A stretch of 64,000 bases of DNA, taken from positions 62,001 through 126,000 of the forward strand of contig JAKAVV010000004.1 in the NCBI GenBank assembly GCA_021817145.1, read 5' to 3'. Under the pieces are notes generated by a model, which did no database searches, was not told the origin of the DNA, and saw only the letters and a list, made by a program, of their open reading frames with translations. The DNA is from a bacterium. Lineage in GTDB: Bacteria > Vulcanimicrobiota > JABDET01. This document shows, one piece after another, positions 31,930 through 48,464 of this stretch (position 1 is the first letter of the stretch; every line of letters begins with the position of its first letter). A program made the translations under genes and the position numbers.

Positions 31930-33828
31930 CTATCTTTTGATCGCTTTTTCAAGGGCTCCAAGACCAGCTGCCATGGCTGAAGAAGTTTTGATACTGTTCC
32001 ACCACATAATCGGCTTCCCTTCTCTCATGGTATGACATCTCTGGCAGTAAGGGATATTTGGGTTATCTTTATAAGCCCACATCTGTCCTTTTACTCTTCC
32101 TAACAAGAAGTCTTTTAATGTTGCCTGATTAGGCCACCAGATATGATTTGGATTCCGGTCTCTAACCGAATAAATGGAATTACACGGGGATGGTATCCGA
32201 TCACAAATATGAGGGGGCATATTCAAGTTTTTGATCAAGATATCTCCTGTCATGGCATGGTACGCGCTCCAGGATAATCCAGGAACTCTTCCAGGTGGAG
32301 GAACAATAGCAGAAGGGGGAACTGCTTTAAGAATATACACAACATTAGCGATCAGGTTAAACTCACTGGCAAGGATTCTTGTGTCCTCATGAATTTTCTG
32401 AAAGTCTCCTGCAGCGCTCTGTAAAATAGAAGAGAGTTGAGCTTTACTGGCAGGAGCAGGATGAAGCTCCTGGATTTTACTTTGAAGATTCTGATCTGTT
32501 GTTTTAATCACTCTAAGTTTTTGATCCCACAGATTGAATTTCTGGGTGAAAAGTGAATATATATGGAGAGTTCTGAGCTGTCTTTTAAGGGTGAACATGG
32601 TTGAGCCAAGGGTATCTAATCTTTGAGGCAGCATCCCCCCTAATTTATACACTTTATACGTCATAACTTTCAACATATTGGGTCCATAATTGGAGAGATT
32701 ATTGGCTGTTTGTTTGGCGGATACAGACAAAACTTGGGTGAAAGAAAGCAGGTTTTCGTGCAGTGAAGCAGCTGCTGAAGCTGTGTCAAAAGTAGTGTGA
32801 AGGGTCCTTTTGATAGAAGCGATTTCTGAGGGTGGGAGAAAAGCCAGTTGAATTTTCTTGGGTTTAGCTGGCGCTGGCTTTCTCTTAACTACAGGTTTTC
32901 GTTTAACTGCAACTTTTACGGGTTTTCGAACAAGGGGTTTGTGTCTAATAACCACTGGTTTTTTCTTGACAGCCACTTTGACAGGGATTTTAACGGGTTT
33001 TGGTTTCAGAGCAGCTTCTTTCTGCTTTTTAAGCATCTCTTGGGCGAATTTCGCGGTTTTATTCGTTCTGTCAAACCAGTAATAACTGATCCCTTTTCTG
33101 ATAGAATGGCATCTTAAGCAGTACGGAACCTTCATAGAGTTTTTATAAGGATACTGCTCTCCTTTTACTTTTCCTAAAAGAAGTTCTAGAAGGGTGGCTT
33201 GATTGGGCCAAATTGTATGGGTTGGGTTTTTATCCTTTCGAGCATAAAGAGGATGAGCGGGAGGAGTAAACCCAAGAGGAACAGGATGATTAACCGAGTT
33301 TTTCAAAATATCCAGAACATTGGTGATAACCATAAAATTGATAACCATATTATTTGTTATTTTATGCAAATGCCATGCAGCAGCAGGAGATAAGGCTGCT
33401 TTCGTATTTTTTAGCTCTTTTTTAAAGGATGCGGCATGTTCTCTCCATAGAATAAGCCTCCCTTTGAAGATCGAATAAATCCCTAACTGGGAAGCCTTTT
33501 TTTGGAATTCAGCCATACTTGAGTTAACAGAATGAAGCAGCAAGGGCAGATGATTAAAAAGTTGGTCTGCTTTTTTGGATTTAGGGGATCTGCGGAGAAT
33601 GCGAGTTAACTTTATCGTTGCATGGAAGAGTTTTAGTTGGTTCAGCCTGATCCTTTCTGCTGATTTCAATAAGGATTTTTCCATTTTTCTCTTTTTTAAT
33701 CTTGCTGTGGAGTAAGAAGAAGCATGAGAAGCCAGAACAAGAATGCCTGAAAAAGATAAAAGAAGAAGAGAAAAAAGAATCAGCAATTTCCCTTTTAATT
33801 TCAACTTTGATCTCAACATTTGAATCAC
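31930..33828 (-). CDS. Membrane-anchored diheme protein made of two copies of one helical heme module
   Basis: This 632-residue protein has an N-terminal TM anchor (residues 13-36) followed by an extracytoplasmic part. Each half is a helical region ending in a conserved block: DKNPTHTIWPNQATL...VKG...VPYCLRCHSIRKG in the first (heme Cys 237-His 241) and DRNPNHIWWPNQATL...VKG...IPYCQRCHTMREG in the second (595-599). A basic Lys/Pro/Val-rich linker (276-325) joins them. The helical modules resemble periplasmic sensor domains (PilJ/MCP-like or c-heme sensor types), but there is no cytoplasmic signalling domain. It is last in the decaheme/barrel operon and overlaps the DUF1848 gene by 4 bp. It probably passes or senses electrons in the periplasm; no described family is recognised. 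Confidence 0.7.
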   Translation of the reverse strand: MIQMLRSKLKLKGKLLILFSLLLLSFSGILVLASHASSYSTARLKKRKMEKSLLKSAERIRLNQLKLFHATIKLTRILRRSPKSKKADQLFNHLPLLLHSVNSSMAEFQKKASQLGIYSIFKGRLILWREHAASFKKELKNTKAALSPAAAWHLHKITNNMVINFMVITNVLDILKNSVNHPVPLGFTPPAHPLYARKDKNPTHTIWPNQATLLELLLGKVKGEQYPYKNSMKVPYCLRCHSIRKGISYYWFDRTNKTAKFAQEMLKKQKEAALKPKPVKIPVKVAVKKKPVVIRHKPLVRKPVKVAVKRKPVVKRKPAPAKPKKIQLAFLPPSEIASIKRTLHTTFDTASAAASLHENLLSFTQVLSVSAKQTANNLSNYGPNMLKVMTYKVYKLGGMLPQRLDTLGSTMFTLKRQLRTLHIYSLFTQKFNLWDQKLRVIKTTDQNLQSKIQELHPAPASKAQLSSILQSAAGDFQKIHEDTRILASEFNLIANVVYILKAVPPSAIVPPPGRVPGLSWSAYHAMTGDILIKNLNMPPHICDRIPSPCNSIYSVRDRNPNHIWWPNQATLKDFLLGRVKGQMWAYKDNPNIPYCQRCHTMREGKPIMWWNSIKTSSAMAAGLGALEKAIKR

Positions 33829-34811
33829 ACCCTTTCCATTAACGTTTCATTTAATCTTTGATTAGCTGCATTTTGCATTTCGCCTGCCAGCTCCCTTTCA
33901 TTCTTTTTATTTTGAAGATAAGCTGGATCATGTTTTGGAGTCCAGTCTTTTAAAAATCGGGCTGGTTCAGGAAGAGAAAGAGAAAACTTTAAATGAGATT
34001 TTTTCCGCCCTAAAGCGATCTCTCTGCTTTCTGTGGCAAAACAGTAAACACACCCATGAAGACAGGTATCATAACTTCCAATATCTATGGTTTGTGAACA
34101 GGCGCAGGAAGGGAGAGAAAGATGTTTTTCCCCTCCCTCTAAACAGGATGCAGATTCAATCAAATTGGGGATTTCGTACTCCATTCTGGAGGAGATTAAC
34201 TGGATATTTGCCTGATCCGCGATCTGTTTCAAGCTGCATAAAAAAAGATCCACTTCTTCTTTCTGTAGTTTTAAGGGGGGAGAAGGGAGTTTAGACACAC
34301 TGGTTTCAGATTCATAAACCGCTAAATCAAAAAAACAGTTTTGGGTATATCCGCTTAAAGAATTGGCGATCTTTGAAAAACGGTCTAGAATAAAAGAAGG
34401 GGGTGTTTTTTCTGTGAAAAGAACAGGATCAAATCTCCAGTGAACTTGACTGGCAGAAGTTCGAAGAGCCAGTTCTTTGAATGTTTTCAAACTGGTTTCC
34501 AGAGATTGAACACAGGGTTCGAATTCTGTGGGGAGCCCTGTTATTGTATAATGAAAATCAGCCTGAAAATCATTCTTCCGCAGAAATTCAGCGCATTTGA
34601 AAAAAGGCTGATAATTTCTAGACCAGAAAACAAATCTTTCCAGATCGGTTTTTAGAAGAGACACAAGAGTCGAGGTCCCTGTATAAGGATCCCAGACCAT
34701 GACTTTCCCATCCAATAGTCTTTCATAAAACCAGGGGGAATAAAAAGCGGGAAGATCTGTTCTCATACTGGCTGATATGATTTTATACTTCTTCATGAGC
34801 CCTTCTTTCAT
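33825..34811 (-). CDS. DUF1848 family iron-sulfur (radical SAM-like) protein
   Basis: This 328-residue cytoplasmic protein has ISASMRTDLPAFY near its start and the Cys cluster CACSQTIDIGSYDTCLHGCV followed by YCFA. These are the DUF1848 signature, with a CxxxCxxC-like iron-sulfur site as in radical SAM proteins. Its biochemical role is not established. An in-frame ATG at 34796 with GAAGGG close by is an alternative start. It is placed between the outer-membrane barrel and the diheme protein, so a maturation role for this electron-transfer system is a reasonable guess only. Confidence 0.7.
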   Translation of the reverse strand: MKEGLMKKYKIISASMRTDLPAFYSPWFYERLLDGKVMVWDPYTGTSTLVSLLKTDLERFVFWSRNYQPFFKCAEFLRKNDFQADFHYTITGLPTEFEPCVQSLETSLKTFKELALRTSASQVHWRFDPVLFTEKTPPSFILDRFSKIANSLSGYTQNCFFDLAVYESETSVSKLPSPPLKLQKEEVDLFLCSLKQIADQANIQLISSRMEYEIPNLIESASCLEGGEKHLSLPSCACSQTIDIGSYDTCLHGCVYCFATESREIALGRKKSHLKFSLSLPEPARFLKDWTPKHDPAYLQNKKNERELAGEMQNAANQRLNETLMERV

Positions 34812-34823
34812 TCACTATCTCCT

Positions 34824-37628
34824 TTAAAAAGAATGAGAGTAAGATATAGATTCTGACCAGACATGACCATTCATCAAATTAGGCGCAAAAACATAAGAGT
34901 TAAACCCGCCTGGAGCTAAAACAGCCCCTGATGGACAAGCTGGAAGAGGCATTGGAGCAGAGGCTCCGCAAACTGTTCCAACGTCAGGAACCTGATTCGA
35001 AAACTCATTATACTGGACAGACAGCCCAAGACTCGCGTCTTTCTGCAGCATTCTTTTGACATTTAAGGCATACTCGTTTTCTCTTCCATCAATTCTGGTC
35101 ATCACCTGAAGATTAGGGAGATCATTGTAGAAATTAGCAGGGGCATTGATATAACCAATTCCAGGGATCAGAACAGGATTGGAAAGAGAAGGATTCTGGA
35201 AAGTCTGAGGTCTTGAATGCGTGTAATTAAACCCAAGATTCCAGTTTTTTCCGGGGTTCCAGTTGATACCTGCGTAAATCTCCTGATCCTGAATATTGGT
35301 TTGATCCATTAAAGTATCAGGGATCCCTCCACTAACAGAAGTTAAATTCCACTGAGCCCAGGGTTCAAAAAGCCCAACCCAGAAAGGGGAGCCAACAGCA
35401 GGAAGCGCGGTGGTAGGACCGCAGGGTCCAGCGCATACTGGAAAAGGAGTGAAGTAATTTAAAGCTTCTGTATTAAAAACAGGGGAAACCGATTCTTCTT
35501 TATTGATCGTATTCGTGTACCCCGCAAAAAGGGAAAAATGGCTGGAAGGGATGTAATTGGCATTAAAACTTAAGGTATTGGTATTGTCAGAATACGGGTA
35601 AATCCAGCTGGAGTTTGTTTTATCGCTTTCATTGGTATAAGATAAATTCATGAACAACTGGGAGTTCGGGCTGTAATTTAAATCCCCATAATATTTCCAG
35701 TTATCCATTGGATCTGTTCTTAACCAGGCATTATTAGACCATCTTCTTAAAACACTTAAGCGATAAGTCAGACCACTGACAACAGGTCCTCCGATTTTTG
35801 CGTCCCATCTGTATTGATCAAAAGAAAGAGACTCCATGCCAACAGGCATTCCAACAGGATAAACTCCTCCAAAAGGATTAAATCCACCCGCAGGACCGGC
35901 TTCTCCAATAGGATAATACCCTGGAACTGTTGACGGCACATTCACAAACCCATAAACAGGATAAGTGATCGTATTGGTTCCGCATCCGATCAATGCTGCT
36001 AAACCAGGAGGAAACCCAGGAGAATTGCAGGGGGAAATAATAATCGGGGTGACAGCAGTTGGAGCAAGGGCTCCATTTGGTGTAAAGGTAACAACATATC
36101 CATTGGATGTCGCTGTTCCAAGCTGATCCCCTTGTAAAGCGGTATTGACCAGGGGATTAAAAGCAGAGAAGATTCTCAGATCATAATAATCTAAAAGCTG
36201 TGAATCTGTCTCTTTTTCCCAGCCTCCTGATAAACTGAGGTACTGACTCCCAAAGGAAAGATTATATCCAGCAATTAAGTTCGTGTCTTTTCTGTGCATT
36301 GCATCCAGGATACTGCTCTCAGGGATTTCATCCCAGTAATCATAATCCAAATATCCATGACCTGCTTGATGAAAATTAAAATTAAACGTTCCTCTGTATT
36401 CTTCATTGGTATATTGGGGAGAAAGATTGGTCGGGGTCTGCTCAGCAGAAAGCATTGGCGGAACATAAGGAAATGAGATCGCATCCTGGGTTCCATAACT
36501 GAAAACCCCGGCAGAACGCTTATTCCACTCTTTCCAGTAGCCTGAAATCGAATAACTGCTGCTGAATGGAACCCTTAATCCCGCTTGATTTTCACTCCAA
36601 AAAGTATCAGCAGAAGTTGTCGGTGGTATTTCAGGGTTTAGGGTAAACCCATTGGCAGGAGAAGGAACGATCCCAGCAGGTCCAGAAGCAGCCAGAAGGT
36701 CAGTATTCGTATATCCAATTTGCTTGTTATCCCAGTTTGTGTCAGTTGTGGCAAAATATCCTTCAACATTATTATCTGTATAAGTCGCCCCAACCGATGT
36801 TCGGGAAAGATTATTGTCTCTTCCTAATCGCCCATTCCAGTCTCCAACTGATGATCCCAAATAATATCCCTGCAGTCCGGTCTGGCTTCTTAACACATTG
36901 GAAAGATAAAATCCAAGCCCTGATTTTTCAGTGTATCGAAGAGAGTTTACAATATAATTATCCAGTCTTGGATAATAAGGAAAATTTTGAACATATCCAG
37001 GAAGATACCAGGCTCCTAGAGGAACCACAAAAGAACCACTAGGATACCCAAACAAAGGCGAGAAGTCGGCCAATTCAGGGTTTGGGTCAAATCCGTAAAA
37101 AACATCTCGATTTAATATTTCCGCATATTTCAGATTATAGGTGAGATTGGGATCCTGATATCTGACCCGTAAAGCTTTATGAAAATCATCTTGACTCATG
37201 GCATATCCATTAAATACCCCTCCAGATTTGAGCCTGGCGCTGAATCTCAAACTATTAATGTAAAATCCATTTTGCAGAGGAGCATAAGGATCTTCTACTG
37301 CTGGGTTCCCGCTGATTGTGTTCACATTAAAGGATTCATCAATACTAACCCCAGGGATTCCTGTAACAAGGGCTGCAAGAAGAGCGTTAAAACTGGAAGT
37401 TCCTATCCCCCAATTTGGATCTCTCGCTAATCCTGGGATCCCAAACCCATAATTCGGATTAATGGGCTGGATAGGAGGAAGAACTTGAGGTTGATAAACA
37501 GGGCCCTTTGGGGGAACTGGAACCCCTCCAAAACTTAAAAGAGGCGTGAAAAAGATTGACAAAGCGAAAACGCACAGGGTAAAGATTCGGGCTAGGTTTT
37601 TTACTATTTTTCTCTTTATTTTTTTCAT
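34824..37628 (-). CDS. Large outer-membrane beta-barrel protein, MtrB/PioB-type partner of the decaheme cytochrome
   Basis: This 934-residue protein has a signal peptide (MKKIKRKIV, hydrophobic to LSFGG). A Pro-rich segment (residues 36-60) follows, then many alternating amphipathic strands rich in Tyr, Asn, Ser and Gly (for example YALNVKRML, LGLSVQYNEFSN). It ends in a terminal aromatic strand SESISYSHSF, the usual signal for outer-membrane insertion. Its position directly after an MtrA/DmsE-like decaheme gene (12 bp) matches porin-cytochrome conduits, in which the barrel sheathes the multiheme wire. Sequence is poorly conserved in this family, so the assignment rests on length, topology and context. 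Confidence 0.75.
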   Translation of the reverse strand: MKKIKRKIVKNLARIFTLCVFALSIFFTPLLSFGGVPVPPKGPVYQPQVLPPIQPINPNYGFGIPGLARDPNWGIGTSSFNALLAALVTGIPGVSIDESFNVNTISGNPAVEDPYAPLQNGFYINSLRFSARLKSGGVFNGYAMSQDDFHKALRVRYQDPNLTYNLKYAEILNRDVFYGFDPNPELADFSPLFGYPSGSFVVPLGAWYLPGYVQNFPYYPRLDNYIVNSLRYTEKSGLGFYLSNVLRSQTGLQGYYLGSSVGDWNGRLGRDNNLSRTSVGATYTDNNVEGYFATTDTNWDNKQIGYTNTDLLAASGPAGIVPSPANGFTLNPEIPPTTSADTFWSENQAGLRVPFSSSYSISGYWKEWNKRSAGVFSYGTQDAISFPYVPPMLSAEQTPTNLSPQYTNEEYRGTFNFNFHQAGHGYLDYDYWDEIPESSILDAMHRKDTNLIAGYNLSFGSQYLSLSGGWEKETDSQLLDYYDLRIFSAFNPLVNTALQGDQLGTATSNGYVVTFTPNGALAPTAVTPIIISPCNSPGFPPGLAALIGCGTNTITYPVYGFVNVPSTVPGYYPIGEAGPAGGFNPFGGVYPVGMPVGMESLSFDQYRWDAKIGGPVVSGLTYRLSVLRRWSNNAWLRTDPMDNWKYYGDLNYSPNSQLFMNLSYTNESDKTNSSWIYPYSDNTNTLSFNANYIPSSHFSLFAGYTNTINKEESVSPVFNTEALNYFTPFPVCAGPCGPTTALPAVGSPFWVGLFEPWAQWNLTSVSGGIPDTLMDQTNIQDQEIYAGINWNPGKNWNLGFNYTHSRPQTFQNPSLSNPVLIPGIGYINAPANFYNDLPNLQVMTRIDGRENEYALNVKRMLQKDASLGLSVQYNEFSNQVPDVGTVCGASAPMPLPACPSGAVLAPGGFNSYVFAPNLMNGHVWSESISYSHSF

Positions 37629-37640
37629 GTTTCCCCCCTT

Positions 37641-38588
37641 TTATGGTGTAAAGAAATTGCGGCTGGAATTGCTGCCGTGAATGGCCGGATGGCAGGCAGT
37701 GCAGTCTTGAGCCATTAATGAATACTGCAGCGATGATCCAGTATGACATCTGAGACAAAGAGCAGGCTGAGGCAGTCTCCAGAGGAATTCCTGTGGAGAT
37801 CCATGCGGGCTGTGACATGCCAGACATCCTGCTGTTGTGGAGTGAGAGAAAACAAAAGGACCTGCTTCAGCCGGGTGGCAGGTTCCACACGCTTCTACAG
37901 AGCGTCTGGCTCCAAAAACCTGAGGAGCATTTTTCAACATGGTCAGTTTTGAACTGAAATGAGGTTTATGGCAGTCTGTGCAGGACATTAACCCTTCATT
38001 TACTGGATGATGGGAAAACATATTAAATTCAGCTTTAATTCTGAGATGGCACTGATAACAGACATCTCGTTCCACAGCGTATTTTAAAAGATATTTATTC
38101 CCCATTGGGTCGGCATGAAAGCTGTGGCAGTTCAGGCAGTCCAGATGTGCTCCCGCATGAATAACAGACTGCCCTTTAAAATGGCAGGTTTCACACAATG
38201 CATTGATTTTAGCAGGGGGCCATGCCGCAATATTATTGATCTTAACAGGGGCATTGTCAGCCACATGAAGACTGGCATTTCCATGGCAGTATTCGCAGTG
38301 AGAAGTCCCTGGAATTTCTGAATGGATATTCAGTTTCCATCCTTTTGGGGTTAAACCCAATTTATCCGGATCCACTGGCTGTGGATGACAGTTCCAGCAA
38401 GCAGAATTTCCAACCGCTTTTGCTCCAGGGATTAAAACCAGAGATTTTGCGATCTTACCGTTGTGATTAGGGGCAAACCCGGGATATGTTGGGGTAATAT
38501 ACCCCGCAGTCCCCTTTTTCCCTAAAAAGAAAATGCAGCAGAGAACCACTGCTGCAGAAAGAAATAATTTTTTAACTCTCCTCTCCAT
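37641..38588 (-). CDS. Decaheme c-type cytochrome, MtrA/DmsE-like
   Basis: This 315-residue protein has a signal peptide (VKKLFLSAAVVLCCIFFL) and ten CxxCH heme sites, with first Cys at 64, 98, 132, 151, 177, 203, 234, 255, 278 and 296. The ending CTACHPAIHGSNSS and the CHSPHGS site are typical of DmsE/MtrA-type decaheme wires. In porin-cytochrome complexes such a protein sits inside an outer-membrane barrel and carries electrons between periplasm and exterior, in either direction. It is the first gene of the four-gene minus-strand operon. No outer-surface MtrC-type multiheme gene is seen here, which fits the two-part MtoAB/PioAB layout. Confidence 0.92.
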   Translation of the reverse strand: MERRVKKLFLSAAVVLCCIFFLGKKGTAGYITPTYPGFAPNHNGKIAKSLVLIPGAKAVGNSACWNCHPQPVDPDKLGLTPKGWKLNIHSEIPGTSHCEYCHGNASLHVADNAPVKINNIAAWPPAKINALCETCHFKGQSVIHAGAHLDCLNCHSFHADPMGNKYLLKYAVERDVCYQCHLRIKAEFNMFSHHPVNEGLMSCTDCHKPHFSSKLTMLKNAPQVFGARRSVEACGTCHPAEAGPFVFSHSTTAGCLACHSPHGSPQEFLWRLPQPALCLRCHTGSSLQYSLMAQDCTACHPAIHGSNSSRNFFTP

Positions 38589-39341: not shown

Positions 39342-39856
39342 ATCTTTCTGCTCTGAAGGAACTCCTTCCTGGAGGTCTGCCTCCTGAAAAAATTTACTAC
39401 AGAGTTGTAAATTCACACTATGCTCAAGAGATTGACGAAATCACACATACCATGCATTATTCCTGGAGATACAATCCTTCTGGCGAATTTGGAGTCCTGT
39501 ACCTTTCTTCCAGCGCCAACTGCGCTTTTCAAGAAAAATTGAGACAGGTTAACGGTAGAAAAGAGGATTTACCTTTACAGGCTGCCGGCAGATTTCGAGT
39601 CAAATTGAACTGTCTTGACCTTACAGATAGGAAAACACTTAAAATACTTGAGGTCAATCCTTTACAATTGATTGACAGACGAGATTTTACAACCACGCAA
39701 AACATATCCCGAGAAGCGAGGAAACTGGGCTTTGAAGGGATCGCTGCTCCATCAGCCATTGGGGAAGAATGCCACACACTGGTTGTTTTTAAAGACAAAC
39801 TCAACCCTCCTTCTTACTGTCGTCTGTTAGATGTGAACACCTTTCAGCCTGTTTAA
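39338..39856 (+). CDS. RES-domain toxin (NAD+-degrading type)
   Basis: This 172-residue protein has YYRVVNSHYAQ near residue 20, then SWRYNPSGEFGVLYLSSS, AFQEKLRQV and the block GIAAPSAIGEECHTLVVF. These correspond to the conserved Arg, Tyr, Glu and Ser regions of the RES fold, whose members degrade NAD+. TTG start coupled to the antitoxin stop. Its last 30 bp overlap the convergent radical SAM gene. Confidence 0.8.
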   Translation: MNLSALKELLPGGLPPEKIYYRVVNSHYAQEIDEITHTMHYSWRYNPSGEFGVLYLSSSANCAFQEKLRQVNGRKEDLPLQAAGRFRVKLNCLDLTDRKTLKILEVNPLQLIDRRDFTTTQNISREARKLGFEGIAAPSAIGEECHTLVVFKDKLNPPSYCRLLDVNTFQPV

Positions 39857-40954
39857 CTCCGGGACATAAGGACAGGCGGGATCTTCTCCAAGAGGATCTC
39901 CTGAAAAAGAGTAAGCCCTTGCTCTTGATCCCCCGCATAAAATTTTATACTCGCAGATTCCGCATTTTCCCGTAAAATCTCCATTTCGAATCGCTTTTAA
40001 AAGAGGGGATTCAGAATAAATTTTCTGCAGCGAAGTTTCTGTTACATTCCCAACAGGTAAAGGGAGAAATCCAGCGGGGTAAACATCCCCATTATAACCC
40101 ACAAAAATAATCCCATTCCCATCCCTTGTCCCCTGGGTCTGCGCTAAACAGGTTCCCCCTTTTTCTCCTAAAAGACGACTCAGTTTTGTTGAAAGATTTT
40201 GATACAGGGTTCCTGGAACAGGATGACATTCTGAAAGAGTTCTTGTTTTTCTCCAATCCACTACCCTTCTAAAAAAAGGGGCTTCCACTGTTCTCACAAT
40301 GATCCCATAATAAGAAACATCCACTAAAAAATGGCAGACCTCTTCATGTTCTTCAGGAGAGATTGGATTAACCGCTTTTCCTCTTCCTGTTTGGATCAGG
40401 AAAAAAACTTCCCAGATTGAAACTTTCAATTTTTTCAATAAATAAGCCATATCAGCCAGTTCTTCCACATTTTCTCTCATGACTGTTGTATTAATTTGAA
40501 GGGAAAACCCTTGAGAAACTAAAAATCGGATCATTTCCAAAGTTTGAGCGAAATGACCTGGAACCCCTCGTATGGCGTCATGGGTGGTTTCTTCTGATCC
40601 ATCTAAACTGATCGAAAGGGCTTTTACCCCCATATTTTTAAATTTAATAAAAAGATTGGGATCAAATTTGGTGCTGACAGCAGGGGATAAAGCAGCAGGG
40701 ATTTCAAGTTCTCGAGCAAGTGAAACTAAGCCCAAGAGATCCTCCCTCATTAAAGGATCCCCTCCTGTTATCACCAGAATTGGATAAGGTTTTTTAAACT
40801 GGGTCAGGCTTTTAATAAAAGCCTCTGCTTGTGAATTGGAAAGGGTTCCAGGGAGAGGGTCTTTCATGGCTTCTGCTCTGCAGTGTTTGCAGGCTAAAAG
40901 ACAGGCTCTGGTTGATTCCCAAAAAACTAAAATCGGTCTTTCAGAGAAATTCAT
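39827..40954 (-). CDS. Radical SAM/SPASM protein (NirJ/AhbD-like group)
   Basis: This 375-residue protein has the [4Fe-4S]-SAM motif CLLACKHC (Cys 18, 22, 25) after FWESTRA. It has VITGGDPLMREDLL (GGE-like motif) and a C-terminal SPASM cluster CGICEYKILCGGSRARAYSF...ACPY. The WESTRAC opening and layout match the group of SPASM proteins near heme d1/heme b synthases (NirJ, AhbD), but peptide-modifying enzymes share it. ATG 40954 is chosen because GGAGG lies 5 bases upstream. It overlaps the nitronate-monooxygenase-like gene by 14 bp and is last in a five-gene operon. Confidence 0.8.
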   Translation of the reverse strand: MNFSERPILVFWESTRACLLACKHCRAEAMKDPLPGTLSNSQAEAFIKSLTQFKKPYPILVITGGDPLMREDLLGLVSLARELEIPAALSPAVSTKFDPNLFIKFKNMGVKALSISLDGSEETTHDAIRGVPGHFAQTLEMIRFLVSQGFSLQINTTVMRENVEELADMAYLLKKLKVSIWEVFFLIQTGRGKAVNPISPEEHEEVCHFLVDVSYYGIIVRTVEAPFFRRVVDWRKTRTLSECHPVPGTLYQNLSTKLSRLLGEKGGTCLAQTQGTRDGNGIIFVGYNGDVYPAGFLPLPVGNVTETSLQKIYSESPLLKAIRNGDFTGKCGICEYKILCGGSRARAYSFSGDPLGEDPACPYVPELNRLKGVHI

Positions 40955-42386
40955 CACAACCTCCATTCAACAGTTTTTTTATCACATCTGAAGCTGTATA
41001 AGTAAGACTCCCTGATGGGAAAAACCGCTTCACTCCACTCAAATCATCACCTGCTGTAACAATTCCCGCTTCTATATGTTTGCTGTTCCGTATCTGAGGA
41101 TGACCGGCTGTTGCTATCAAGGCATTGCAAATACACTTTTTTCCACGGGTATCCTCAATCTTTCCCCCTTTTGACACATAAACTGAAACAGGCTCTGCAG
41201 CGCAGCGAAACCCAATGGTTCCTTCAGGGGTTTTATAAGCTTCTCTTAAAAATCCCAGATCGCAGATCCGAGGTCTGGAATTGTAAGTCTCTTCTTCTGA
41301 AACTGTACCCTCCAATTTAACCACTTTGAAGGGGAACCCGGTGGGAGAAGCTTGAGAATCAGTCAATACCTCAGCATCATCTCCTTCTGCCGCTTTTTTC
41401 AGCAGAGCCTTTTTGTAATCCTGACGAAGCCCTGATTCCTCGCAGAGCGCAAAAGCGGTTCCTACTTGTATCCCTGCTGCTCCAGAGCGCAGTGCTTCCT
41501 TCAGCTTTTCAGGGGATCCATACCCACCCGCCAACCAGAAGGGAAGACCTAAACTTTTCATTTTCACCAGATCAACTCTATCCCTTTCCCCATAAACAGG
41601 CTCTCCATTTTCATTCACTTTAAGGGCTCCACGAGGAGGAGCATTATGTCCACCTGCTGTCGGTCCTTCAATAACAAACCCATCAATTTTACCACTGGAT
41701 CGTTTCATCATAATTTCAGCAAGAGTATTTGAAGAAATAATGGCGAGAAATCGAGGACGAACAAGAGGAGGAAGATCGCGCTCCTTAAATTCACCAGGAT
41801 CAAATCGAATCAGGGTATCATCCCCTGGTTGAGCTCCAGTCACTTGTAAAGGATAAGATACAGGATGATGAGCAGAAAGAAGATCCAAAATTCCTGGGAT
41901 TTTTAAAGGAATACCTGCCCCCATTAAAACATACCCGACCCCTGCCAGCATGGCGCCATAAAGAGAAGGCAGATGGGGAATCTGAATTTTTTCCAGATAA
42001 TTGATCCCAACAGGATTGTCATGCCCTTCGCGGGCAAGAAAAACCTCGACAAAATTCCCAAGAATACACAATTCTTTCAGCTCCCGAGGGCTTTCCTGTC
42101 CATGCATTTCCAAGGTCATATAAGAAGTTCTTTTACTCTTTCCGCCAGGAATGTAATAGATCTGCCAAAGACGTTCAGCCATCTTTCGAAAGGGGAAATG
42201 ATCAAAAGCGCGGCGGATATGTCCACCAGGATCTCCATCTTGCAGACGTCTGACAAGAACTTGATCTAAAGCTGTGCCTGAAACAACTCCTAACTGTCCC
42301 TGACGTGATACAGCCTGCGCAAGTCTCCAGCACGAAATCGCGACTCCCATTCCCCCTTGAATAATCTTGGGATAATGAACAGTCAT
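40941..42386 (-). CDS. Nitronate monooxygenase / 2-nitropropane dioxygenase-like flavoprotein
   Basis: The protein is about 481 residues from ATG 42386, which overlaps the upstream Crp-family stop (ATGA). FMN-binding TIM-barrel features are IIQGGMGVAIS, VIEGPTAGGHNAPP and FWLAGGYGSPEKLKEA then GAAGIQVGTAFALCEES. The His of TAGGHN is the usual catalytic residue of nitronate monooxygenases. The length is that of the longer subgroup, beyond the FabK form. Substrate unknown; nitroalkane detoxification or enoyl reduction are options. Confidence 0.8.
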   Translation of the reverse strand: MTVHYPKIIQGGMGVAISCWRLAQAVSRQGQLGVVSGTALDQVLVRRLQDGDPGGHIRRAFDHFPFRKMAERLWQIYYIPGGKSKRTSYMTLEMHGQESPRELKELCILGNFVEVFLAREGHDNPVGINYLEKIQIPHLPSLYGAMLAGVGYVLMGAGIPLKIPGILDLLSAHHPVSYPLQVTGAQPGDDTLIRFDPGEFKERDLPPLVRPRFLAIISSNTLAEIMMKRSSGKIDGFVIEGPTAGGHNAPPRGALKVNENGEPVYGERDRVDLVKMKSLGLPFWLAGGYGSPEKLKEALRSGAAGIQVGTAFALCEESGLRQDYKKALLKKAAEGDDAEVLTDSQASPTGFPFKVVKLEGTVSEEETYNSRPRICDLGFLREAYKTPEGTIGFRCAAEPVSVYVSKGGKIEDTRGKKCICNALIATAGHPQIRNSKHIEAGIVTAGDDLSGVKRFFPSGSLTYTASDVIKKLLNGGCDEFL

Positions 42387-46591: not shown

Positions 46592-47053
46592 ATGAAGCAT
46601 TTATCTTTCAAATCTTTTACCCGTTTTATTTCCCTGGTTTTTGCCGCAGCAGTCCTGCTGCCAGCCATCAGTTTTTCCAGCCCAAAAGGGAACAATCTGG
46701 TTTTCCAGAGCAATCCCAATCAAACCCAGGTTAATATCACCATAGCTGCCACTGTTCCTCAATTTAAAAATGGAAAGCTGACAGGAGGCTGGGATCCCAG
46801 AAGAATCATTGTTTATCAAGGTCAAAAAGTTAATTTATCGATCAAAGCCATGGATGTGCAGCATATTTTCGATCTGCCTGCTTATGGAATTAAAGTTCCT
46901 TTGACCCCAGGACAAACAGAACATGTTTCATTTACAGCAAATAAAACAGGGATCTTTTTCTTTCACTGCGCCAATCAAGAATGCGCTCCAGAAGCTCTCC
47001 ATCGTTTAATGGTAGGACAAGTCATTGTCAAAGACGAATCAGACTCGAAGTAA
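46592..47053 (+). CDS. Periplasmic cupredoxin with CuA-like ligand set
   Basis: This 153-residue protein has a signal peptide (residues 1-29, FSS). The single cupredoxin domain has a His at 91 (MDVQHIFDLP) and the ligand loop HCANQECAPEALHRLM, giving Cys126, Cys131, His137 and Met140. Oxidase subunit II and N2O reductase CuA sites have C-x3-C-x3-H-x2-M; here the spacing is C-x4-C-x5-H-x2-M. The residues fit a binuclear copper site, but the looser loop is unusual. It precedes the heme-barrel gene by 25 bp, like an electron carrier next to its outer-membrane donor. A mononuclear type 1 site is possible. Confidence 0.8.
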   Translation: MKHLSFKSFTRFISLVFAAAVLLPAISFSSPKGNNLVFQSNPNQTQVNITIAATVPQFKNGKLTGGWDPRRIIVYQGQKVNLSIKAMDVQHIFDLPAYGIKVPLTPGQTEHVSFTANKTGIFFFHCANQECAPEALHRLMVGQVIVKDESDSK

Positions 47054-47078: not shown

Positions 47079-48464
47079 ATGATAAAAAAAATAATGAGAA
47101 AGAGTTCTGCTAAAAATTTAGAGCCTTTCCTGTTTGGAGGAGCCATTCTGGCTCTTCTTCTTTTTGTTGTGGTCTTCCAACCCCGAAACTCTTATGCCCT
47201 CCCTGCTTTTGCGCGGCAGCTGGATGTCAACTGCAATGAATGTCATACAGTCTGGCCCCGTTTAAACTCTTTTGGGCGCCATTTTATGGCAATGGGATAT
47301 ATCCAAAAAGGGGCTCATCCAGGATTTCCTATTGCCGCTAAATTCGCCACTTTTGATCAATGGAATACCACCTCTTCACCTCCTCCATCCTCTACGACCA
47401 ACAAATTCCTTTTCCCCAATGAAGTCACTTTCGCAATAGGTGAAGCTGTGCTGCCAAAAGTAGGTGTATTTGGAGAAGTCAATCTAGATCAAATTAAAAA
47501 TCCAGCAGGCGGAACTGAAATGTACGCTAATTTTGCCATGGAAAGAGTTGCTATCAGTTTGAGTGAAAAACACCCCTCTTCCATTGTCTTTTTCAAAGGA
47601 AGTCCATTTGAAGAAGTGGATCCCAATATCTCTCTAGGGAATTTAATTCTACAAAATTATCTTACACCTGGCACTCTTGGAATGGGATACCTCTATGATT
47701 TAGATGACTTATCTGATTATGGAGTGGCTTTAAGCAGCTATTTTACAAAAGACAATCGCTGGTACGGAGCAGTTGGTTTATCAACTGGAGGATTAGTTTC
47801 TAATAATGATGCCGCTATTCCAGGAAACCCTTTTACAACTGGAGCTTATGGAACCAATGATTCTGCTGATGGCGCTCTCAGCTATTTCGGAAGGATCGCT
47901 TATGAAGGGGATGTCGGACAGTGGGGAGGAACCTTCAATATAGGAGCAGCAGGGTATTATGGAGAACAGAGCTCTACTCTTCAACTTCCTGGAACTTTCT
48001 ACAATTATAATGGATCAATCCAAAGAACGTACCTTGATGCAGGACTCCAAATCCCAACCGACATGTACGATTCTCGCTGGTTTGAGTTGGTGGCAGACTA
48101 TGGTTATGGTCAAGACCAGAACGTCCATGAATTAAATGCCACAGGAACAGGTGTCCTTCCCCCTTTTAATGGAGAAATTAAAGGATTTTACGCAGAAACT
48201 GATTGGGTTGGATTCAATATGGTTACTCCTTTTATTGCTTATGACCATACAACCCTCACTGCTGCTCCAAGCGCTGGACTAGAAGCTGCTTTAGGAGCAG
48301 TCAATACCCCCAGTGTATGGACAACCAATACCTGGGAGTATGGAATCCAATATTACCCCCCTGCATCCAGCAAAATGAGGGTTCAACTCTGGTATCAACC
48401 ATACTCTGACAATCTTGGGAATGCTGGAAATCAGGTAAAAATCATGATAACAAAGTGGTTCTAA
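47079..48464 (+). CDS. Fused monoheme cytochrome and outer-membrane porin, Cyc2-like
   Basis: This 461-residue protein has a signal sequence with a hydrophobic core (17-33) and cleavage near SYA-L. Directly after it is a single heme motif in PAFARQLDVNCNECHTVWPR followed by LNSFGRHFMAMGY (Cys52-His56). The remaining 380 residues are amphipathic strands with Tyr/Trp/Gly turns, ending in KIMITKWF, an outer-membrane insertion signal. The order PxFAR-CxxCH-P-L-FGR-F-GY plus a 16-strand-sized barrel matches Cyc2-type iron oxidases, but related heme-porins of unknown role share this start. It has a ggaggaaggtg ribosome-binding site and follows the cupredoxin. Confidence 0.75.
   Translation: MIKKIMRKSSAKNLEPFLFGGAILALLLFVVVFQPRNSYALPAFARQLDVNCNECHTVWPRLNSFGRHFMAMGYIQKGAHPGFPIAAKFATFDQWNTTSSPPPSSTTNKFLFPNEVTFAIGEAVLPKVGVFGEVNLDQIKNPAGGTEMYANFAMERVAISLSEKHPSSIVFFKGSPFEEVDPNISLGNLILQNYLTPGTLGMGYLYDLDDLSDYGVALSSYFTKDNRWYGAVGLSTGGLVSNNDAAIPGNPFTTGAYGTNDSADGALSYFGRIAYEGDVGQWGGTFNIGAAGYYGEQSSTLQLPGTFYNYNGSIQRTYLDAGLQIPTDMYDSRWFELVADYGYGQDQNVHELNATGTGVLPPFNGEIKGFYAETDWVGFNMVTPFIAYDHTTLTAAPSAGLEAALGAVNTPSVWTTNTWEYGIQYYPPASSKMRVQLWYQPYSDNLGNAGNQVKIMITKWF

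Follow-up and report, generated by a model that had tools for sequence, protein, structure and literature searches.

A probable porin–cytochrome conduit encoded together with a DUF1848 protein and an exported tandem haem protein

Organization of the locus

The window analysed here is a 64-kb stretch of contig C37 from a 2.66-Mb bacterial assembly that is 97% complete. Its minus strand carries, at positions 31930–38588, four open reading frames (ORFs) joined by two 12-bp spacers and a 4-bp overlap (Table 1). This layout had been given in a preliminary description of the DNA, and its ORFs, strand and spacing were re-derived exactly. Just 1 bp separates the end of the unit from a convergent gene. 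The products of genes 1 to 4 contain 10, 0, 0 and 2 CxxCH motifs, respectively. Just four of the ORFs of at least 90 aa in the window carry any such motif, and thus the ten in gene 1 are not a product of chance.

Table 1. Genes and features of the four-gene unit, in window coordinates
Feature	Position	Strand	Evidence
Gene 1: decaheme c-type cytochrome, MtrA/DmsE/OmcK type, N-terminal signal sequence, 315 aa	37641..38588	-	10 CxxCH, NF041028, TIGR03508, 6r2q_A, dN/dS
Gene 2: large predicted outer-membrane beta-barrel, decaheme partner, 934 aa	34824..37628	-	Signal sequence, C-terminal Phe strand, composition, weak NF041027, paralogue behind decaheme
Gene 3: DUF1848 protein, 328 aa, lacking a signal peptide, cytoplasmic, Fe-S/radical-SAM-like Cys cluster	33825..34811	-	PF08902, family alignment, dN/dS
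DUF1848 Cys cluster C-x-C ... DIG ... C-x3-C-x2-C-F-A	34041..34106	-	Invariant in the phylum's DUF1848 alignment
Gene 4: exported, probably membrane-anchored tandem of four-helix bundle plus one-haem module, 632 aa, pI 10.4	31930..33828	-	2 CxxCH, internal repeat, AlphaFold2 helices, dN/dS
Gene 4, first four-helix bundle, about aa 40-178	33295..33711	-	pLDDT mostly 70-92
Gene 4, first one-haem module NPTH...PYCLRCH..RKG, about aa 190-255	33064..33261	-	Alignment, profile match E 9e-33
Gene 4, Lys/Pro/Val-rich linker, about aa 275-330, predicted disordered	32839..33006	-	Composition, pLDDT <50
Gene 4, second four-helix bundle, about aa 333-502	32323..32832	-	AlphaFold2 model
Gene 4, second one-haem module NPNH...PYCQRCH..REG, about aa 550-611	31996..32181	-	Alignment, profile match E 1e-35

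The decaheme and barrel proteins

The gene 1 product combines a length of ~300 aa, an export signal and ten CxxCH motifs with a full-length match to the DmsE family model TIGR03508 (E 7e-48, model positions 1–257 of 258), which bears out its earlier description as a ten-motif, MtrA/DmsE-like protein. The score of 163.4 bits is below the curated cut-off of 192 bits, and we therefore treat the protein as a divergent relative rather than call it a member of that family. The match to NF041028 (GSU2203/OmcK; E 2e-50, 171.7 bits) is likewise below its curated cut-off of 325. Residues 63–285 also match the solved MtrA 6r2q_A (E 3e-22) with the haem motifs aligned, and the 23 His residues suffice for ten proximal and ten distal haem ligands.

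The 934-aa product of gene 2 looks like a large outer-membrane barrel. It carries a signal sequence, is rich in aromatic residues (FWY 14%) and poor in basic ones (KR 5%; pI 4.9), has a composition similar to that of the genome's own canonical MtrB, and finishes in a strand ending in Phe (...SYSHSF). Neither Pfam, including PF11854, nor TIGR03509 at E 0.1 gave a match, hhalign found no detectable homology to the same genome's MtrB (probability 6.6), and a profile search of the PDB, made with the barrel alignment, returned nothing relevant. The only named family matched is NF041027 (GSU2204), weakly and across residues 638–712 (E 7e-5); the 21.9 bits obtained against the 350 needed, together with the lack of CxxCH, place the protein outside that family. 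Members of the GSU2204 family are listed as MtrB/PioB-family outer-membrane barrel selenoproteins in a 2026 review (PMC13188914). AlphaFold2 modelling from four sequences yielded a pLDDT of 25, and in a simple amphipathic-strand count a soluble control gave a score similar to those of the barrels.

Decaheme–barrel pairs recur in the genome and phylum

Two further decaheme–barrel pairs are encoded in the same genome, on contigs C28 and C35. The C28 pair is a paralogue in the same gene order, with a decaheme protein 47% and a barrel 39% identical to those of the window. The C35 pair (L023 1714-11680) is of the canonical MtoAB/MtrAB-like kind and shares the order of decaheme then barrel with the window. 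In contrast to the window's barrel, that of C35 matches PF11854 (E 4e-54), and the C35 genes adjoin a cupredoxin and a complex composed of a five-CxxCH cytochrome, a molybdopterin oxidoreductase, an FeS protein and NrfD, neither of which adjoins the four-gene unit. Two clusters of the C35 type are present in a sister species (L055 and L056).

The same arrangement is found in three genomes from other families of the phylum (G003, G004 and G046): wherever the 3′ side of a full-length TIGR03508-type decaheme was readable, the next gene is a large, aromatic-rich one, and PF11854 misses most of these genes. These pairs, along with those of the window's own genome, indicate that a barrel gene normally follows a decaheme gene and that the barrel sequences vary widely. 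Surveys based on PF11854 undercount conduits, since the standard MtrB/PioB models overlook the barrels of some decaheme–barrel pairs. Genes 1 and 2 show the defining arrangement of a porin–cytochrome conduit, an exported multihaem cytochrome adjoining a large outer-membrane barrel gene, with the barrel predicted from sequence features only.

The DUF1848 protein

Gene 3 had been assigned to DUF1848, and the match to PF08902 (196 bits, cut-off 30.5; E 1.3e-57) does span the entire domain. The family's Cys cluster, C-x-C...DIG...C-x3-C-x2-C-F/Y-A, is retained in the family alignment. Against the radical SAM model PF04055 the protein reaches 13.3 bits (cut-off 29.5) and shares with it the CxxxCxxC motif only. 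Since this is a cytoplasmic Cys-cluster protein with no signal peptide, it is not a component of the wire, contrary to its initial inclusion as a part of the conduit. Both the window's genome and that of the sister species hold a second, more typical DUF1848 copy elsewhere. In the surroundings that were read, those of both second copies and of DUF1848 genes from five further genomes of the phylum, no CxxCH gene is adjacent, and the link between DUF1848 and the conduit is therefore positional only. Our searches found no publication on DUF1848 and no solved relative.

A tandem bundle–haem protein

Gene 4 begins with a signal sequence or anchor and encodes two homologous halves (28% identity, E 3e-26). 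The duplication in the 'duplicated diheme protein' described previously is thus real; the halves are one-haem units in their own right and not a classical diheme cytochrome. Each half comprises a four-helix bundle that AlphaFold2 predicts confidently, together with a haem module that fits NPxH..W...AT..D.L.G(K/R)VKG...PYC.RCH..R.G. The linker region between the halves (aa 263–332, 70 residues) contains 20 K, 11 P and 12 V. A PDB fold search with the model gave nothing at E<=0.001, and its weaker matches were four-helix bundles only.

The haem module also occurs in two other proteins of the same genome: a 356-aa single-unit protein and a 535-aa protein adjoining ResB/CcsB-type cytochrome c biogenesis genes. 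Among 136 genomes of the phylum, its only occurrence beyond the genus is a single one in G004. Within the genus, the alignment marks the His of NPxH as a candidate for the second haem ligand; the G004 copy of the module lacks this His.

Conservation of the four-gene block

The sister species (G001, JAJYZB/FK4.bin95), the only congener compared, has the four genes in identical order. When all ORFs of the window were compared with 20 kb around the sister copy, the matches were the four genes and two distant paralogues; no further neighbour is common in order to the two loci over this distance. The dN/dS values between the two species are 0.07 for the decaheme, 0.10 for the barrel, 0.145 for DUF1848 and 0.14 for gene 4, and all four genes are under purifying selection. 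An order kept despite differing flanks, together with this selection, demonstrates that the four-gene unit is real and rules out a chance pile-up of four genes.

A conserved neighbourhood in relatives had been proposed as a check on the unit, and the block is indeed intact in the sister species, with different flanks, in this one genus. The barrel family is absent from the other genomes of the phylum that were searched (about 150 species in the sample). A scan of public genome contigs recovered it from the sister metagenome-assembled genome FK4.bin95 only, which is weak evidence of absence elsewhere because that scan used two short peptide patterns.

Comparison with known conduits

The MtoAB and PioAB conduits operate without MtrC. 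A scan of the 97% complete genome for CxxCH pairs, which would overlook motifs spaced by more than 120 bases, likewise revealed no MtrC-like protein, in the unit or elsewhere in the assembly. The absence of MtrC reported at the outset thus holds, whereas its use as a sign of novelty does not, given that Mto and Pio also lack this protein. The window's unit further resembles these systems in its pair of decaheme and large barrel and in its extra genes for periplasmic electron partners. It differs in that PF11854 fails to see the barrel, and in that MtoD/CymA or PioC are replaced by the tandem bundle–haem protein and DUF1848.

Among other systems, Shewanella MtrCAB is similar through the MtrA of 6r2q, but the window's unit has no MtrC-type surface cytochrome, and no sequence homology to MtrB is detectable in its barrel. 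The OmcK/GSU2204 pair of Geobacter (GSU2203-GSU2204) supplies the best NCBIfam match of the decaheme and the only named family that touches the barrel, yet both scores are far under the cut-offs (171.7/325 and 21.9/350 bits), and the GSU2204 model describes a CxxCH-containing (seleno)protein whereas the window's barrel lacks CxxCH. In G. sulfurreducens, levels of GSU2203-GSU2204 increase with hematite and with magnetite (PMC4070692).

A proposed role for the unit

These comparisons suggest that genes 1 and 2 probably encode a known kind of porin–cytochrome conduit in divergent form, rather than a categorically new one. The genus-specific pair of DUF1848 and the bundle–haem protein may constitute an undescribed conduit variant. 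The original proposal of a new variant of extracellular electron transfer therefore survives for these two companions, in one genus, and not for the conduit itself, which is ordinary.

We hold with moderate confidence a model in which genes 1 and 2 form the conduit, gene 4 supplies a periplasmic relay and DUF1848 is a cytoplasmic maker or regulator of the unit. The decaheme would sit inside the large barrel, whose fold is itself predicted, and would carry electrons across the outer membrane. The gene 4 protein, exported, strongly basic and probably anchored in the inner membrane, would bear two one-haem heads joined by a flexible Lys/Pro linker. It would most likely relay electrons between the decaheme and a periplasmic or inner-membrane redox chain, and would take the place of the MtoD/PmcA/CymA or PioC of other systems. 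DUF1848, as an Fe-S, radical-SAM-like protein of the cytoplasm, would help to make or regulate the unit. A one-haem periplasmic relay has a precedent in PmcA (one haem), which connects inner-membrane ImoA to MtoA in S. lithotrophicus (Sideroxydans; PMC13390432). Weighing against this model are the barrel's missing match to MtrB in Pfam and profile comparisons, its pLDDT of 25, the strand count in which a soluble control scored like the barrels, the low confidence of the gene 4 haem modules in the AlphaFold2 model, the restriction of the block to one genus among the genomes compared, and the C28/C32 paralogue, which consists of a decaheme and a barrel alone.

The same paralogue favours an alternative in which the conduit comprises genes 1 and 2 only, and genes 3 and 4 share its transcript but form a separate pair with another function. 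The DUF1848 copies without CxxCH neighbours and the close relatives of gene 4 at unrelated loci point the same way. However, the sister species keeps all four genes side by side despite different flanks, their spacing in the window is tight, and gene 4 itself encodes an exported haem protein. We consider such independence somewhat unlikely.

A second alternative concerns gene 4 only, which might act as a haem-based periplasmic sensor or a structural tether instead of an electron carrier. Its four-helix bundles share a fold class with sensor domains, the Tsr ligand domain being among the weak PDB fold matches, and its basic Lys/Pro linker recalls periplasm-spanning spacers such as that of TonB. 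Against this stand the lack of a cytoplasmic output domain and the presence of two haem sites within a conduit operon, and we regard a sensor or purely structural function as doubtful. Taken more broadly, gene 4 probably encodes a relay or tether in the periplasm.

For many systems there is still debate over how electrons pass through the periplasm between the inner membrane and an outer-membrane conduit. A more specific form of the favoured model, which we offer as speculative and unlikely in its entirety, is that the anchored, Lys/Pro-linked, two-headed one-haem protein spans the periplasm and passes electrons directly between the inner membrane and the decaheme, with DUF1848 as a dedicated maturing or controlling enzyme. 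If this is true, a conduit operon would carry its own tethered two-haem relay, and the periplasmic step would become testable with one protein pair.

The remaining alternatives concern the conduit pair. It could work with a terminal reductase at the cell surface or in the periplasm (DmsEF-like) instead of with minerals or electrodes, as the below-cut-off match of the decaheme to TIGR03508 might suggest, but no reductase gene lies within or adjoining the unit, and this function is quite improbable. Still less probable is a reading in which the 934-aa protein has another envelope function, such as that of a solute porin, and the decaheme stores electrons as a soluble protein of the periplasm; the lack of an MtrB/PioB match or any profile homology and the pLDDT of 25 would allow it, but the duplication of decaheme and barrel as a pair, the recurrence of this pairing across the phylum and the weak GSU2204 match argue against it.

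Other redox genes in the window, genome and phylum

A radical SAM/SPASM protein (39827-40966, minus strand), scoring above the TIGR04053 cut-off and related to the haem b synthase AhbD, is encoded about 1.2 kb from the operon. On the plus strand, a COX2-like cupredoxin (46592-47053) adjoins a 461-aa Cyc2-like fused cytochrome–porin (47079-48464; ALPAFARQL...CNECH...PRL, C-terminal Phe). The latter fits the published motif AXPXFAR[Q/K][T/Y]...CXXCH...PXL save for Leu in place of T/Y. These two proteins and the window's cytochrome oxidase cluster would suit electron uptake from Fe(II); Cyc2-like N-terminal domains are very common in the phylum, matched in 116 of 149 genomes.

In G004, contig C349 (L054 13409-19737) encodes two OmcA/MtrC-like decahemes of about 1000–1100 aa, and a DmsE-type decaheme lies about 0.1 kb past them; an apparent MtrB match on this contig proved to be an SLH-domain porin and not a conduit barrel. 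Contig C328 of that genome (L106 2840-4465) encodes a 541-aa protein with 22 CxxCH motifs, and downstream of it lies a further decaheme–barrel pair. In the window's own genome, a 560-aa protein with eight CxxCH motifs is encoded between TolC-, EmrA- and EmrB-like efflux genes (contig C33, L025 6575-8257), and contig C21 (L024 942-7224) has the gene order of alternative complex III: a multihaem ActA-like protein, MoCo/FeS, NrfD and a monohaem subunit.
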